This document shows, in pieces, positions 53,953 through 61,407 of a DNA stretch of 64,000 nucleotides (the stretch's first letter is position 1; each line of letters begins with the position of its first letter). The position numbers and the translations under genes were made by a program. The notes under the pieces were generated by a model that was given only the letters and a program-made list of their open reading frames with translations, searched no databases and was not told the DNA's origin. Source of the stretch: Butyrivibrio fibrisolvens (GTDB taxonomy: Bacteria; Bacillota; Clostridia; Lachnospirales; Lachnospiraceae); the NCBI RefSeq assembly GCF_023206215.1, contig NZ_CP065800.1:62001-126000 (forward strand). The letters run 5' to 3'.

Positions 53953-55719
53953 TTAGTTTTTGAGATATATTTCAGGGACATTAGTAATAATATCAGTCAC
54001 ACCGAATTCTGAATACTTGCCCATGTCTCTTTCTTCAAGCATCCTACCATCATTAAAGAAGGGCTCTTCCATATTCCAGGCGCGGATCGGCACATCTTTA
54101 AGCCTTCCTTCTCCTCTTGCATTCATTCCTCCTATCCATGGATGAAGAGCATCGGCGCCTGCATAAACAGCCCCTTGTATACAGCCTTCCATGGTACCTG
54201 AAAGCATGCCTGTCTTTGCAGAAGGAAGGAGCTCTTTGATTATCTTGATAGATTCTGCAAGGAATGATGAATATACTATATATTTCTCCATCTCAAATTC
54301 GCTTACAATATCAAGAACCTTCTGCTCAATTCCTGGATATCTCACAACGCTTGTTTTAAGCTCTATGTTAATAAGAAGACCATTTTCTTCGCAGTAGGGC
54401 TTGAGGAGCTCTAGCATCTGCTTCAAGGTAGGTATAGTCGTAGTCTCACCGCCCGCCATCTGTATATGGAGTTTTTTTAGCTGATCAAGTGTATAGTCTC
54501 TTACATACCTTGTTCCATCAGTAACCCTTCCTGTATGCTCATCATGGAATACAACAACCTCTCCGTCCTTGGTAAGCTGCACATCAGTTTCTATACCTGT
54601 GATGCCCGGGATTTTGGCTGCTGCCTCGAAAGCTTCCAGCGTATTCTCAGGATATGCCATGCTGCATCCTCTGTGAGCCCAGATCTTAACCTCTTTTCTT
54701 TCGCCCTGTTTTGGTCTTTGCTTTACAAAAGCTTCTATGACAGAGGCTGCGGCGATACTCTCTTTGGTAGAAAGAATCGTTACAGGATCACTGCTTACTA
54801 CCTGATTTCTGATCTTCTCATAAGTATTCTCGGACATATGATCAGTCAGATTGTTCCTGCCAATAGAAGCAACTCTTCTTCTAAACTCTGCAAGATCATA
54901 CGTAAAGCCGTTACTGTTGCTATCGCAGTAGATGATGTCATTGTTCTTATCGTCATAGGACTTGATAGTAAATTTGCGCATAAGATACCAGGGCGACTCA
55001 ACATTGATACAGCCCATGGAACCCGTGATGGTAAGAGCATCATCGCTTAGTACCGCCGTAGCAGTCTTGACCGTTGCCTGTGCATGATCGTACTTTAGAG
55101 TTACTTTAGTATATGTATCAATACCATTTAATCCGTATACGGCATTTATGTTTATATCCTTGTACGAGGTTCCAAGCAGTCTTAGAACAGGAGCCAATAC
55201 AAAATTACCAAAAGTTTCAAAACAACCACCTTCAGGGAATGAATGCTCTCTCTCATTGGTAGGAATAAGTCTGGAAAAAGAAGCTTCTATATCCACAATG
55301 CTTCCTATAACTCCACTTTTAAGAACCTCTGTTAGTTTCATAAAACCGGGCGTATTAAGGCTTCCGGTTGCCTCCATAAGGACAAGTCCTTTGTTAGAGG
55401 CCATATCATAAAGGTCTTCTGCTGTCTTTCCGGACATAGATATAGGAGCCTGACACAGTACATGTTTACCTTCATCAAGCATCTTTTTGACAAGTTCTTC
55501 TCTGCAGCTGTTCTCTGCAGATATATAGACCATGTCACAGCTTCCGGATACAACTTCAGGATCAAAGGTTGATGTCCCGCAGTGGTATTTTTTTGCAAAG
55601 TTCTGCGCCTTATCAATTCTTGTATCATAGATGCATGTAAGATCATATTCTCTGCTCTTTGCTACTACCTGTGCAATAATATCCGCAGTTCTACCCGTTC
55701 CCATTATTCCAATCTGCAT
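53953..55719 (-). CDS. Fusion of Gfo/Idh/MocA oxidoreductase-like domain and glycerophosphodiester phosphodiesterase
   Basis: Cytoplasmic protein of 588 residues joining two families. Residues 1-~330 form a Gfo/Idh/MocA fold: QIGIMGTGRTADIIAQ (dinucleotide binding), YISAENSCREELVKKML and an alpha/beta C-terminal part. The usual EKP motif reads CQAPIS (89-94), so the expected catalytic Lys is missing. Residues ~345-588 are a GDPD domain with H349-R350 (WAHRG), E377 and D379 (GIETDVQ) and H392 (FHDEH), all typical of an active phosphodiesterase. The two frames are continuous. ATG with GGAGGAA upstream. Substrate is unknown; cleavage of glycerophosphodiesters, with the first domain binding a cofactor or sugar, is the simplest reading. 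Confidence 0.88.
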   Translation of the reverse strand: MQIGIMGTGRTADIIAQVVAKSREYDLTCIYDTRIDKAQNFAKKYHCGTSTFDPEVVSGSCDMVYISAENSCREELVKKMLDEGKHVLCQAPISMSGKTAEDLYDMASNKGLVLMEATGSLNTPGFMKLTEVLKSGVIGSIVDIEASFSRLIPTNEREHSFPEGGCFETFGNFVLAPVLRLLGTSYKDININAVYGLNGIDTYTKVTLKYDHAQATVKTATAVLSDDALTITGSMGCINVESPWYLMRKFTIKSYDDKNNDIIYCDSNSNGFTYDLAEFRRRVASIGRNNLTDHMSENTYEKIRNQVVSSDPVTILSTKESIAAASVIEAFVKQRPKQGERKEVKIWAHRGCSMAYPENTLEAFEAAAKIPGITGIETDVQLTKDGEVVVFHDEHTGRVTDGTRYVRDYTLDQLKKLHIQMAGGETTTIPTLKQMLELLKPYCEENGLLINIELKTSVVRYPGIEQKVLDIVSEFEMEKYIVYSSFLAESIKIIKELLPSAKTGMLSGTMEGCIQGAVYAGADALHPWIGGMNARGEGRLKDVPIRAWNMEEPFFNDGRMLEERDMGKYSEFGVTDIITNVPEIYLKN

Positions 55720-55998
55720 AACATTCCTCCACTTTTAACCCTGTTTTTCTTTTCAAACTTCGCACTTGTCAAACATTCGTCGCCTTTTGCAGCTGCTCCA
55801 ATACGGATGTTTGGCAAGTATTTAGTTTTATACCTATGTCTATTATATTCCTAAAGCTGGCGCTTTACCAAGCCTGACAGGGGCAAATAGATAGAGCAAC
55901 GGCTATTATCATGAGATTCTGACTGACCTGAGCATGAAAAAAGTCATACGTGAATCCATGAAAAAGTAATAATATATAGCTACACGTTATTTTGTTAA

Positions 55999-56135: not shown

Positions 56136-56245
56136 GTCCCCCGCGAAAGTTATAATTGCAGGTGACCACAATTTTATCGATGTCTTTTTTTTATGTTTAT
56201 TTGGCACTAAGCATATGTACCATTTGTTTTAAAAGGAGGATTATT

Positions 56246-56713
56246 ATGCCACAGACAAAACTTCAGAACGTTATATTCACTATCATGATGGTGCTTGTAA
56301 TGGTATACGGTATGGTCGTATACAACATCACTTTGGATAGAGGTGCACTTACTAACGATGTATTTTACATTGCTCTTTTTGAGCTTCCTATTATGGGCGT
56401 GATCGGTTTCATTATTGAATTCCTTATTGCAGGAAGGCTTGCACAGAAGATGGCGTTCAAGATCGTAACACCAGGTCAGGACAAGCCTATCATGATAATA
56501 CTTGCAATATCTACTATGACAGTTATGTGCATGTGCCCCATGATGAGCCTTGTAGCTACATGTCTTTTTAAGGGAATCGATTCTCAGATCATCGCTAAAT
56601 GGATCCAGCTCACTGTGACCAACTTCCCTATGGCTCTTTGCTGGCAGATCTTCGTAGCAGGCTCTGTTGTCCGCTTCATATTCGGCCACACATTTGCAAA
56701 AAGCAATAAGTAA
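56246..56713 (+). CDS. DUF2798-like four-segment membrane protein
   Basis: Membrane protein of 155 residues with four predicted segments arranged as two similar halves (TIMMVLVMVYGMVVYNI then ELPIMGVIGFIIEFLIAG; MIILAISTMTVMCMCPMMS then NFPMALCWQIFVAGSVVRFIF). This matches the small DUF2798 family, whose function is not known. The ATG at 56246 is chosen because AAAGGAGG lies about seven bases upstream; the frame continues 30 codons further up without a site. It has a long structured leader and is followed 22 bp later by the first long palindrome. Confidence 0.8.
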   Translation: MPQTKLQNVIFTIMMVLVMVYGMVVYNITLDRGALTNDVFYIALFELPIMGVIGFIIEFLIAGRLAQKMAFKIVTPGQDKPIMIILAISTMTVMCMCPMMSLVATCLFKGIDSQIIAKWIQLTVTNFPMALCWQIFVAGSVVRFIFGHTFAKSNK

Positions 56714-56735
56714 GAAATCCAATACTTCGCCGCAC

Positions 56736-56999
56736 GACCAGTCAGCATCCCCAAAGCCTTTACAGGGTGCAGATAGTACATAAATCATTACCACGCTACT
56801 AATCGTTTTATAATTTATGGCACGATATCTGGAGCTTTTCATTCTGGGGTCCAAACTCGCTTCGCTCAGACATGTGGACCCCGAACAGAATGAAATTCTC
56901 CATCTATCATGCTCATAAATTTAATAAAACGATTATAAGCGTGGTAATGATTTATGTACTATCTGCACCCTGTAAAGGCTTTGGGGATGCTGACTGGTC
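56736..56999. repeat. Long palindrome, element 1
   Basis: A 264-bp inverted repeat. The outer ~62 bp of each arm, starting GACCAGTCAGCATCC, are perfect complements. The inner ~55 bp are imperfect. The central GGGGTCC (56846-56852) and GGACCCC (56876-56882) enclose a 23-base loop with CAGACATG. It fills the gap between convergent genes. Confidence 0.95.
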
Positions 57000-57022
57000 C
57001 AAGTCGTAGTATAGGTATATTA

Positions 57023-57511
57023 TTAATCGCCTAGAAGCTCCATGGCTTCATTAACATAGCGCATGGCATTTTCTTTAAAGTGAGCTTTTTGAGAAGGAGA
57101 TACTTTTTTGACTACCTTGGCTGGTACGCCCATTACAAGGCTGTCATCGGGAATGACTGTGTTCTCTGTAACAAGTGCTCCTGCGCCTATGATGCAGTTC
57201 TTGCCTATATGGCAGCCGTTCATTATAGTTGCATGCATGCCTATAAGACTATAATCATCAACATATGATCCGTGGACTATAGCACTATGGCCTACTGTTA
57301 CATATTTACCTATTGTAACAGGAAGGCCTTTTTCTTCATGTATGACTGCATTGTCCTGTATATTAGACCCTTCACCTATAGTTATGGTATCTCTATCTGC
57401 TCTTATGGTTGCATGATTCCATACGCTGCACATAGGCCCTATGGTCACATCTCCTATTACATCAGCAGAACTAGCTATATAAGCTCTTTTATCTATCACA
57501 GGTTCTTTCAT
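57023..57511 (-). CDS. Gamma-carbonic-anhydrase-like hexapeptide-repeat protein
   Basis: Cytoplasmic left-handed beta-helix protein of 162 residues, of the YrdA/PaaY/CaiE type. Hexapeptide repeats run through the centre (IGDVTIGPMCSVWNHATIRAD, IQDNAVIH, IGKYVTVGHSAIVHG, LIGMHATIMNGCHIG). His residues in VGHSAIVHG and GMHAT are in the positions that bind metal in gamma-class carbonic anhydrases. Several relatives lack measurable carbonic anhydrase activity, so the reaction is uncertain. ATG with AAAGGGG upstream. It sits alone between the two long palindromes. Confidence 0.88.
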   Translation of the reverse strand: MKEPVIDKRAYIASSADVIGDVTIGPMCSVWNHATIRADRDTITIGEGSNIQDNAVIHEEKGLPVTIGKYVTVGHSAIVHGSYVDDYSLIGMHATIMNGCHIGKNCIIGAGALVTENTVIPDDSLVMGVPAKVVKKVSPSQKAHFKENAMRYVNEAMELLGD

Positions 57512-57680
57512 TCAAGTGCCCCTTTCACGCAAATAACTATGTAACAATATATACATCAATTACATACATATATATTATAATGGCATATTAGTTATAATGA
57601 TTACTTTTTGAAAATAAACTTCCATCCTTATTACACACCGCTAGATTAGAGAATATATTTAAGCTTCAATCTTTTCACTT

Positions 57681-57948
57681 GGACAATGCAGTATCACCAA
57701 AGGATTTTCAGGGACGGGCAGTATATAAATCATTGCCACACTTTTTACTCGTTTTATAAAATTCATGAGCGTGATAGATGAAGTTTTTTATTCTGCCAGG
57801 GGTCCGCATGTCTGAGCGTCAGCGAGTTTCGGACCCCAGAATAAAAAACTCCAGATATCATGCCATGAATTTATAAAGCGAGTAATAGTGTGGCAATGAT
57901 TTATATACTGCCCGTCCCTGAAAATCCTTTGGTGATACTGCATTGTCC
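57681..57948. repeat. Long palindrome, element 2
   Basis: A 268-bp inverted repeat. The outer ~61 bp, starting GGACAATGCAGTATC, are perfect complements. The core has the same GGGGTCC...GGACCCC pair (starting at 57799 and 57831) and the same loop as element 1, but in reverse orientation. It lies between the start of the gamma-carbonic-anhydrase gene and the csrA terminator. Confidence 0.95.
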
Positions 57949-57969
57949 TGGCGAAAATTATGAATCAAA

Positions 57970-58005
57970 ACAAAAAAGCTGCTGCCTCATATTGGCAACA
58001 GCTTT
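57970..58005 (-). terminator. Terminator of csrA
   Basis: On the minus strand AAAGCTGTTGCC pairs with GGCAGCAGCTTT (one mismatch) around a short loop and is followed by TTTTTT. Confidence 0.85.
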
Positions 58006-59097: not shown

Positions 59098-61407
59098 TTA
59101 TATATAGTTCATCAGCGATTCCTTCATTATCTTGCTTGTTGCCATAAGTGATGACTGATATATAAGCTCTGCTGTTGAGAGGTTGGTTGCTGTCTCAGCA
59201 AGATCGATATCTTCGTTATTGCTCTGAAGAGTCTTAAAAGTTGTCAGCTGGTTTTTAAGTCTGTCCTGTGTCATAGAAAGTCGGCTTGATCTGGTACCAT
59301 TTTCTGTAACCGCAACATTGGCTTTATCAAGTGCAGCCTGCATCGAAGTGATCTTCTTGCCAAACATATCCTTTAATTCTTCCTTCATGTAGTCATACGA
59401 CTTCTGGGAAGCAGCGATTTCTCTCTTGATACTTGCAATCGCATTTTCATCTGTTGTTACAGATAGAGTACTGTTCATAGTACCCATCATAGTCTTGATA
59501 TTCTTCATCTGATCAACAAGTCTTCTTATGTCCTGAACATCCCTTTTTACAGTTGTAGTGAAGACTTCATCTGCGGTTGTATTAACTTCTATAGTCTGTC
59601 CGTATCCTACGTCATACTGCATGATATGACTTGAATTGCCGCCATTATAGACTACTGTCACGCCGTCATCTATGTTGGTGCACTTCATAAGATTTTCAGG
59701 TCTTGTATCGCCGGAGAGCCAGGATGACTTATCATACAATACGTTTATATTATTGGCATTGGTTATATCAGTAAGAGATTCAAGTTTTTCTTTAAGCTTT
59801 GCTGACAGCAGGATCTCTCCTGTATAAGCATTAAGGCAGAAGCACTCATTCTCAGTATCTTTTTCCAGTGCTACATATATATCGTCAATAATATCTTCTG
59901 TAGTAGTTGAGTCTATAACCTTGGGAAGACTTGGTGCATTTAAGACACCCGGCTTTATAACTGTCTCGCAGTAGGAGCTGTATACACTTCCGTTAGAAGA
60001 TAAGTTTACAACATTGATACTCTCTCCTGAATCTATAAGAGAGCTTTCGTTGCTTATCTGATATGTGCCGTCAGTATTGACTGTCATAGAGTATGCATTA
60101 CCTGCAAGGTCATATACATCAACTTCATAAGGGGCATCCGATGCACCTGTAAGAGGGACCTGAATGGTTGTCTGATCACCGTTAATAGTAAAATTGAAGG
60201 TAGAGAGCGCTGCATCTGCAACAGTAGCTGTAATATCATACGCCTTGACTTCACCATTGTGATCTACTGTAAAAAGACTTGTACCTGACTGTGAGTTTAC
60301 TGCCTTTATAGTATAGCCTTCGTCAGCTTCCGGTGTGATGGAATATGTAGTAGTCGATCCATTGGATTCTGTAACTGTTGTAGACTGAAGTATGCTGACC
60401 TGAGCCTTCCTCGGGCTTCCTGCTGCATCTGTATAGCTTATCATAAGGTCTGTTCCATTGATATCTACATCTATATCAGTTGCTGTAGCAACGCCGTTTT
60501 GATTAAGGGTCATTGAGAAAGGTCCAAAAGATGAATTCTCACCCTTTATGGTATATCCATAATCATCATTTCTTGAAGCAGTATATGTTGTCACAGAACC
60601 ATCAGCTTCTGTGACTGTTACAGCATTATCCTTATAAGTCGAAATATTAACTTTACGAGTTATTCCGTCCCTGTCTTTAAAAGCAAGATATACAGTATCT
60701 TCATCTGATGATGTTGACAAAATAGATGTAGCAGGAACTGTAAAATTCTCACGATATCTTACAGACACGTTACCTGTATCAGGATCGATATTGTCATATG
60801 AAAGTCGTATACGACCTACATATGAAGCAGACATATCACTTTCTGCAGGATATGATGTATCACTAGCTCCAAGACTATATGCTCCTATTACCCTTTGAGA
60901 TGTATCTATATTATTTTCATTAAATTCATCGTGAAGCTTTATATACTGTGTACTCTCATCATCCTTAAATGTAAGTGACTGCTGGGTTCTGTATCCTGTG
61001 AAAATATATCTCCCGGCATAATCTTCATTACCTGTAGAATAATACTCATCAGAAAGAGCACTCATCTCTGTAAGGATAGTGTCTATATCATCAAGTGTCT
61101 CGTACTGGTTTACACCCTTATTGCACTGCTGGATCATAGATGTCAGTACATCTGTGATAGTAGAAAGGGCATCTTCAGTTACGCTCAGCCAGCTTTCTGC
61201 ATCATTTGCATTCTTCTCATAATACTGGGACAGTTCTGTAACATTGCTGCGAAGGCGAAGCGCTCTTATTGCAATAACAGGATCATCAGATGGTCTTGTA
61301 AGCTTCTTGCCTGTAGCTATCTGAGTATTAAGATCATCCTCTGCCACCTTATTATTATTGATATTATAGATTGAGTTATTGTGCATTATCTTGTTAGTAA
61401 TTCGCAT
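59098..61407 (-). CDS. flgL: Flagellar hook-filament junction protein FlgL, enlarged by internal repeats
   Basis: Structural protein linking hook and filament. Conserved ends are present: RITNKIMHNNSIYNINNNK, IATGKKLTRPSDDPVIAIRAL and EDYAGRYIFTGYRT at the start; RSSRLSMTQDRLKNQLTTF and DIDLAETATNLSTAELIYQSSL at the end. At 769 residues it is about twice the usual length. The extra mass is a central region (about 200-480) with two related ~80-residue units: TVTEADGSVTTYT with DYGYTIKGENSS, and TVTESNGSTTTYS with DEGYTIKAVNSQ. These would be surface-exposed domains. ATG with GGAGG upstream, held in a hairpin. It follows flgK. Confidence 0.94.
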   Translation of the reverse strand: MRITNKIMHNNSIYNINNNKVAEDDLNTQIATGKKLTRPSDDPVIAIRALRLRSNVTELSQYYEKNANDAESWLSVTEDALSTITDVLTSMIQQCNKGVNQYETLDDIDTILTEMSALSDEYYSTGNEDYAGRYIFTGYRTQQSLTFKDDESTQYIKLHDEFNENNIDTSQRVIGAYSLGASDTSYPAESDMSASYVGRIRLSYDNIDPDTGNVSVRYRENFTVPATSILSTSSDEDTVYLAFKDRDGITRKVNISTYKDNAVTVTEADGSVTTYTASRNDDYGYTIKGENSSFGPFSMTLNQNGVATATDIDVDINGTDLMISYTDAAGSPRKAQVSILQSTTVTESNGSTTTYSITPEADEGYTIKAVNSQSGTSLFTVDHNGEVKAYDITATVADAALSTFNFTINGDQTTIQVPLTGASDAPYEVDVYDLAGNAYSMTVNTDGTYQISNESSLIDSGESINVVNLSSNGSVYSSYCETVIKPGVLNAPSLPKVIDSTTTEDIIDDIYVALEKDTENECFCLNAYTGEILLSAKLKEKLESLTDITNANNINVLYDKSSWLSGDTRPENLMKCTNIDDGVTVVYNGGNSSHIMQYDVGYGQTIEVNTTADEVFTTTVKRDVQDIRRLVDQMKNIKTMMGTMNSTLSVTTDENAIASIKREIAASQKSYDYMKEELKDMFGKKITSMQAALDKANVAVTENGTRSSRLSMTQDRLKNQLTTFKTLQSNNEDIDLAETATNLSTAELIYQSSLMATSKIMKESLMNYI

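Follow-up and report, generated by a model that had tools for sequence, protein, structure and literature searches.

The window, i.e. the whole analysed stretch of 64,000 nucleotides from Butyrivibrio fibrisolvens (contig NZ_CP065800.1, positions 62,001 to 126,000), carries two long palindromes in opposite orientation in the neighbourhood of a carbonic anhydrase gene and csrA. Both had been reported in a preliminary description made from the sequence alone, and the present analysis recovers them at a size of about 290 bp when their degenerate ends are included. The two types of inner arm (A and B), the GGGGTCC...GGACCCC stem and the outer arms agree with that description, and the arms are 97% and 91% complementary in elements 1 and 2, respectively. 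Coordinates below are those of the window, except where the prefix G000:C1 marks positions in the genome to which the window belongs (G000).

55755..55828, + strand: short relative of about 74 bp with the same end motif (AAACTTCGCACTTG...), without the core
56722..57012, + strand: element 1, whole palindrome with degenerate ends, A-loop-B (ends set by eye against the family length of 288-297 bp)
56736..56811, + strand: element 1, A-side outer arm, 76 nt, 97% complementary to 56924-56999
56824..56834, + strand: element 1, A inner arm GATATCTGGAG, the conserved internal-loop side (from the sequence and the family alignment)
56846..56882, + strand: element 1, tip GGGGTCC - AAACTC(GCTTCGC)TCAGACATGT - GGACCCC
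56898..56908, + strand: element 1, B inner arm CTCCATCTATC
56924..56999, + strand: element 1, B-side outer arm, pairing with 56736-56811
G000:C1:118807-118923, + strand: element 1, covariance-model match
About 57664..57965, - strand: element 2, whole palindrome, B-loop-A on the + strand and hence A-first on the - strand (ends set by eye)
57665..57745, - strand: element 2, B-side outer arm, 81 nt, 91% complementary to 57884-57964
57799..57837, - strand: element 2, tip GGGGTCC ... GGACCCC, with the mini-hairpin variant GCTGACGC on the - strand
57884..57964, - strand: element 2, A-side outer arm, pairing with 57665-57745
G000:C1:119758-119876, - strand: element 2, covariance-model match

The earlier placement of both palindromes at the 3' ends of minus-strand genes needs refinement, as element 1 sits between convergent ORFs (56156-56713 on the + strand and 57023-57511 on the - strand) and element 2 lies beyond csrA's own terminator, a hairpin and T-run recognised by eye at 57970-58005. 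A role of element 2 as the csrA terminator is ruled out by this separate hairpin in between. When folded alone, the minus strand of element 1 reaches -194.5 kcal/mol (z -24.9, 0 of 200 shuffles as good) and that of element 2 -197.0 kcal/mol (z -24.5, 0 of 100 shuffles as good); values of z near -25 for both single strands exclude chance palindromes. In the surrounding DNA, the short relative at 55755-55828 adjoins a Gfo/Idh-type gene, the ORF at 53953-55719 (- strand, 588 aa) appears by eye to combine a Gfo/Idh-like N-terminal part with a glycerophosphodiester phosphodiesterase-like C-terminal part, and the ORF at 59098-61407 (- strand), also judged by eye, encodes a FlgL-like protein of 769 aa with a very large internal insert.

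Anatomy and distribution of the family

Read A-first, the members of the family comprise outer arms, a GGC/GCTC bulge, a GATATCTGG/CCATCTATC internal loop (absent from the G057 and G016 type), an ATTCT...AGAAT stem with a bulge of 3-4 nt on the 3' side, an apical stem and a terminal loop of the form AAACTC-mini-hairpin-TCARACA. The mini-hairpin reads GC-TNC-GC with a variable middle base in 87 of 110 copies from G000 and 79 of 95 from G041, another genome of the genus (12 and 15 copies, respectively, were unreadable), and outside these genomes it is often longer and self-complementary. On the opposite strand the motif reads GC-GNA-GC, and GC-GNA-GC loops are unusually stable in DNA. The family ends are AAACTTC(C/G)CACTTG...CAAGTG(G/C)GAAGTTT, which mostly delimit 288-297 bp; core-less elements bounded by these ends but shorter (60-209 bp among those viewed) look like centre deletions of long palindromes. 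Near G000:C1 position 3368602 (locus L140), one element seems to sit within older palindrome arms, at their apex, flanked by CATCTTGATAGTTTTAT ... ATAAAACTCTCAAAGATG; this hints that elements can insert into palindrome centres.

From 29 copies a covariance model (R1) was made that covers the inner 117 bp; of 2558 candidates in G000, 150 were scored, and they gave 111 places without overlap, one of which is a contig-end duplicate and a few of which are partial or degenerate. The search for further copies proposed in the preliminary description thus makes the window pair two of about 110, besides the shorter core-less relatives. The elements at G000:C1 7607 and 4112420, near the contig ends, are identical together with their near flanks, and the contig probably carries an overlap. 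A blastn search with element 1 returned at least 40 distinct places and one weak match in its own genome (40 of 139 candidates scored), and no match outside G000 in a set of 40 relatives, 24 of them from the same genus, which excluded G041 and G094. Matches to R1 occur in 11 of the 79 genomes of the genus, own included, with 104 distinct places in G041; they are strong in G041 and G094, and weak but with 6-13 copies in G016, G043, G057 and G089.

The tip pattern was found in 14 of the 79 genus genomes, own included (a reversed-pattern control gave 0, except for 4 in G041), and in at least 117 stretches across wider genome contigs. Among the matches listed are Hungatella effluvii, H. hathewayi, Clostridium sp. 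chh4-2, C. lacusfryxellense, C. bowmanii, C. tagluense, Niameybacter and further Butyrivibrio, together with single or few matches in Acetocimmeria, Syntrophales, Botryobacter, Natronospirillum, Pelomonas and others. Folding of 27 loci showed hairpins that occupy most of the viewed stretch in Hungatella, chh4-2, Clostridium, Niameybacter and Butyrivibrio. Of 122 tip matches, 99 extend into a stem of 8 bp or more, vs 33 of 607 in a control which is itself contaminated by true sites; the matches in Elusimicrobium, Parcubacteria and a gammaproteobacterial MAG have no such stem and are probably due to chance. Loss of SbcCD as the reason for palindrome tolerance is unsupported: SbcD is above the cut-off in G057 and in the element-rich G000, G041 and G094, and below it in G016, G043 and G089.

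Long palindromes are prone to chimeric reads, and this general proneness is what speaks for an assembly or chimeric-read artefact, which had been named earlier as a possible refutation. Such an origin is extremely improbable and is contradicted by the data, since each copy has its own flanks and arm sequences, the same family is present in other genomes, and the assembly consists of two contigs at 99.94% completeness.

Mobility and placement

The family is MITE-like and probably non-autonomous, being composed of short non-coding DNA with terminal inverted repeats, target-site duplications and presence or absence at orthologous sites. A direct repeat scoring at least 7 accompanies 18 of the 69 copies with recognisable ends (41 of 110 copies being too degenerate), vs 3.07 expected on re-paired flanks; these duplications are AT-rich, about 8 bp long and seen at young copies. 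The earlier observation that target-site duplications are lacking is valid for the two degenerate copies of the window, at which none is visible, and does not extend to the family, where they are significant. Empty sites were recognised by eye in G041 for three G000 copies, a fourth being ambiguous. For both window elements, too, relatives show empty sites: G041 and G094 lack element 2 at the corresponding position, where the carbonic anhydrase gene adjoins the csrA terminator, and no element follows the carbonic anhydrase gene in these genomes within the 350 bp viewed.

No transposase or autonomous element with the same ends was recognised at six single-end sites and 14 loci (ORF starts, by eye), and no transposase was recognised by eye among the first members of the 25 largest ORF clusters (1390 ORFs from the fetched loci). 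These clusters look like ordinary paralogue families, with no recurrent neighbour gene. The earlier remark that a transposase is missing stands within the loci and ORF clusters inspected, in which no parent insertion sequence was found either.

In comparison with MITEs as treated in passages of PMC10969869, the elements are alike in being short and non-coding, with terminal inverted repeats, target-site duplications, many copies and empty sites, and differ in being almost wholly palindrome, with arms that vary more than the tip. The REP and REPIN sequences associated with RAYT (TnpA-REP) transposases, in the relevant passages of PMC3733652, PMC3116915 and PMC8266576, are likewise interspersed high-copy palindromes, but they are tagged (GTAG or CGTC) hairpins of 20-40 bp, vs about 290 bp here, a length outside the REP hairpin range. 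A Y1 transposase as partner is ruled out, as it is uncorrelated with the elements across the 79 genomes: PF01797 is found in 60 of them (10 of 14 with the tip pattern and 50 of 65 without), and there is none in G089, yet 11 tip matches occur there. ERIC/YPAL-type repeats, as presented in part of PMC2267715, are also palindromic stem-loop families, with models of 115-168 bp, whereas the present elements are longer and their arms are highly variable between copies. No published description of this repeat family was found in the literature searched. Another interspersed repeat of about 200 bp (positions 1733-1932 of locus L182, with copies in L154, L129 and L150 at 85-99% identity in the matched parts) adjoins the G041 element at 219566.

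The position of the elements relative to genes is not random. When genes are predicted by a simple ORF caller, 81 copies in G000 have the A side closer to a gene vs 26 with the opposite arrangement (p=9e-8), and in G041 the numbers are 70 vs 24 (p=2e-6); a second definition gives 64:20 and 51:19. Elsewhere the ratios are 27:20 in H. effluvii and 14:12 in chh4-2, which are not significant, and 6:0 in H. hathewayi (p=0.03). Since gene starts and gene stops both show the bias, transcription direction alone does not account for it. Furthermore, all 12 of the 12 G000 pairs closer than 1100 bp (a limit set after the list was seen) are (+,-), with A sides out and B sides in. Neighbours up to 3.5 kb apart in G000 comprise 13 (+,-), 5 same-strand and 0 (-,+) arrangements (n=18), and five close pairs in G016, G043, G057 and G089 are also (+,-), two of them probably orthologous. 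An interpretation of close pairs as composite elements was discarded, the DNA between them being unrelated by eye and the copies often deriving from different subfamilies.

Matched changes on the two arms

The two arms of a copy resemble each other far more than arms of different copies do. Median identity over 70 nt is 0.877 for a copy's own arms vs 0.611 between copies in G000 (109 copies), and 0.845 vs 0.644 in G041 (95 copies); for outer arms the values are 0.980 vs 0.608 in H. effluvii (the 50 of 55 copies with long arms) and 0.932 vs 0.679 in chh4-2 (24 of 28 copies). Only 61 of 109 copies in G000 and 67 of 95 in G041 have an own arm that is more similar than the nearest other copy, and the outer arms of copy 184079 differ and have been left unlevelled. 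The matched substitutions reported in the preliminary description are borne out by an alignment of 25 copies, in which 97.4% of 2395 cells are paired (about 62 are unpaired, so one-sided changes do occur) and 53 of 96 pairs have changed on both sides. The count of covarying pairs that it had proposed gave 199 double-change cells, vs 45.0 by shuffling and at most 22 in slid controls, and only 15 one-sided standard-pair (wobble) cells. A young subfamily of 24 related copies holds 164 paired doubles vs 129 single cells, many of the doubles being shared by descent, and copy-specific doubles are found in otherwise nearly identical copies (e.g. 490894 and 3223559).

Selection for a very long hairpin had been offered earlier as one of two readings, the other being arm-to-arm conversion. 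In the former, a duplex of about 130 bp in an mRNA leader or 3' end would be maintained as RNA, with mutations rescued by compensatory ones. The strong covariation in the 25 aligned copies is consistent with this, as are the bulges and tip kept in distant relatives, the non-random placement beside genes, and a tip mini-hairpin that varies yet stays complementary (e.g. GCCCATAAATGGGC, GCGCATAAATGCGC, GCCCGCAAGCGGGC). Selection for RNA pairing as the source of the pattern is nevertheless rather unlikely. In the 24 related copies paired doubles are no rarer than singles, and the mismatch bias is opposite in the two genomes (AC>GT 175:129 in G000 but GT>AC 151:91 in G041), with no one-strand wobble enrichment; the GT/AC asymmetry as evidence for one RNA strand was dropped when the second genome gave the opposite sign. 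Rfam provides no match: a scan of the elements yielded only sub-threshold matches, those to miRNAs far below gathering scores, and a scan of 16 related loci at the gathering threshold yielded only a tRNA. Because RNA selection should leave one-strand wobble intermediates, and those seen are few and inconsistent between genomes, the pattern favours DNA-level arm-to-arm conversion over selection for RNA pairing.

Orthologous copies in G000 and G041 bear on whether the arms change in place. Over 487 columns at five orthologous sites, 20 both-arm and 39 one-arm differences were counted, and by arithmetic independent arm mutation would give well under 1 matched double. Twelve of the 20 doubles lie at two sites (559952 and 3275850), mostly in blocks near the core: at 559952-/209323+ eight paired core columns differ on both arms, and four do at 3275850-/3405760-, where the outer arms show no difference between genomes, one flank has 96.7% identity over 941 bp and the other flank is unrelated. 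At 1124460+/4347525+, with flanks 96-98% identical, the outer asymmetries are in register and the inner ones swapped, which means that an inner segment, bounded on both sides within the arms, has flipped. This inversion is clear at one of the five sites examined, and the 3405760 element is not inverted. At 549721/219566, the flanks are 96-97% identical but the element is very different, with an insert of about 200 bp alongside.

These sites also weigh on the alternative that palindromes are rebuilt only on moving, when a fold-back or hairpin intermediate would copy one arm, or by ectopic conversion that exchanges entire elements or cores, with no levelling in place. We regard it as unlikely given the both-arm changes between orthologous copies at one site and the inner inversion at another, whose ends lie inside the arms, even though the copy-specific doubles of the young subfamily, a core difference between otherwise identical elements and the very different element between near-identical flanks at 549721/219566 count in its favour.

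Probable levelling of arms and conservation of the tip

The best explanation, and in our judgement a probable one, is a MITE-like insertion followed by in-place levelling of the arms at the DNA level, with the tip conserved. A palindrome of about 290 bp would insert in AT-rich intergenic DNA with target duplications of about 8 bp, as is evident for young copies. Its arms would then repeatedly be made identical, one being copied from the other, most likely by a polymerase that switches templates at the hairpin while the DNA is replicated. The same copying would sometimes invert the inner segment in place, as observed at one orthologous site, and recombination between copies may swap cores, as at one site. 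Single-arm mutations would in this manner become compensated pairs without selection for RNA, and the asymmetric tip, with its bulges and AAACTC-mini-hairpin-TCARACA loop, would resist levelling.

Template switching homogenises the arms of inverted repeats and inverts their spacer according to passages of PMC8604942, and can maintain RNA hairpin stems according to passages of PMC8794818; arm homogenisation and spacer inversion between related genomes are both encountered here. The portion of PMC8604942 concerned covers short inverted repeats, whereas the present family is interspersed, about 290 bp long and represented by about 110 copies with a conserved asymmetric tip. Matched arm changes need not mean RNA selection. 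We infer template switching from the pattern, part of which classical recombination between arms or copies could produce, and the DNA-level reading is limited by ectopic exchange between copies, which also spreads matched changes.

Two further points count against in-place levelling as the best explanation, namely that pure levelling would also erase the asymmetries of the tip and that the bias of the A side towards genes is not predicted by it. Of the two readings first proposed, conversion is the better supported, although the conservation of the asymmetric tip still seems to call for selection or protection. This tip is probably the functional, recognised part, kept between genera for mobility and/or for a structured transcript leader or 3' end. 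It is conceivable, at a low probability, that an as yet undescribed enzyme recognises the folded single-stranded DNA or RNA tip. The elements would then form a new class of mobile hairpins in Lachnospiraceae, Clostridium and probably other phyla, defined by the tip (stem - AAACTC - mini-hairpin - TCARACA - stem, with a fixed 3' bulge); their stems would be freely replaceable, since nothing but the folding and the tip would count, and in-place flips of the tip in 5' leaders would act as an orientation switch on neighbouring genes.

Covariation between paired bases is widely accepted as evidence that proves selection on an RNA structure, and the elements described here, whose heavy covariation is better accounted for by arm copying in DNA, are a caution for RNA discovery. 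With about 100 copies in each of two genomes, and with in-place inversion, they offer a natural setting in which to study bacterial template switching, and their conserved tip and placement bias point to a recognition system.
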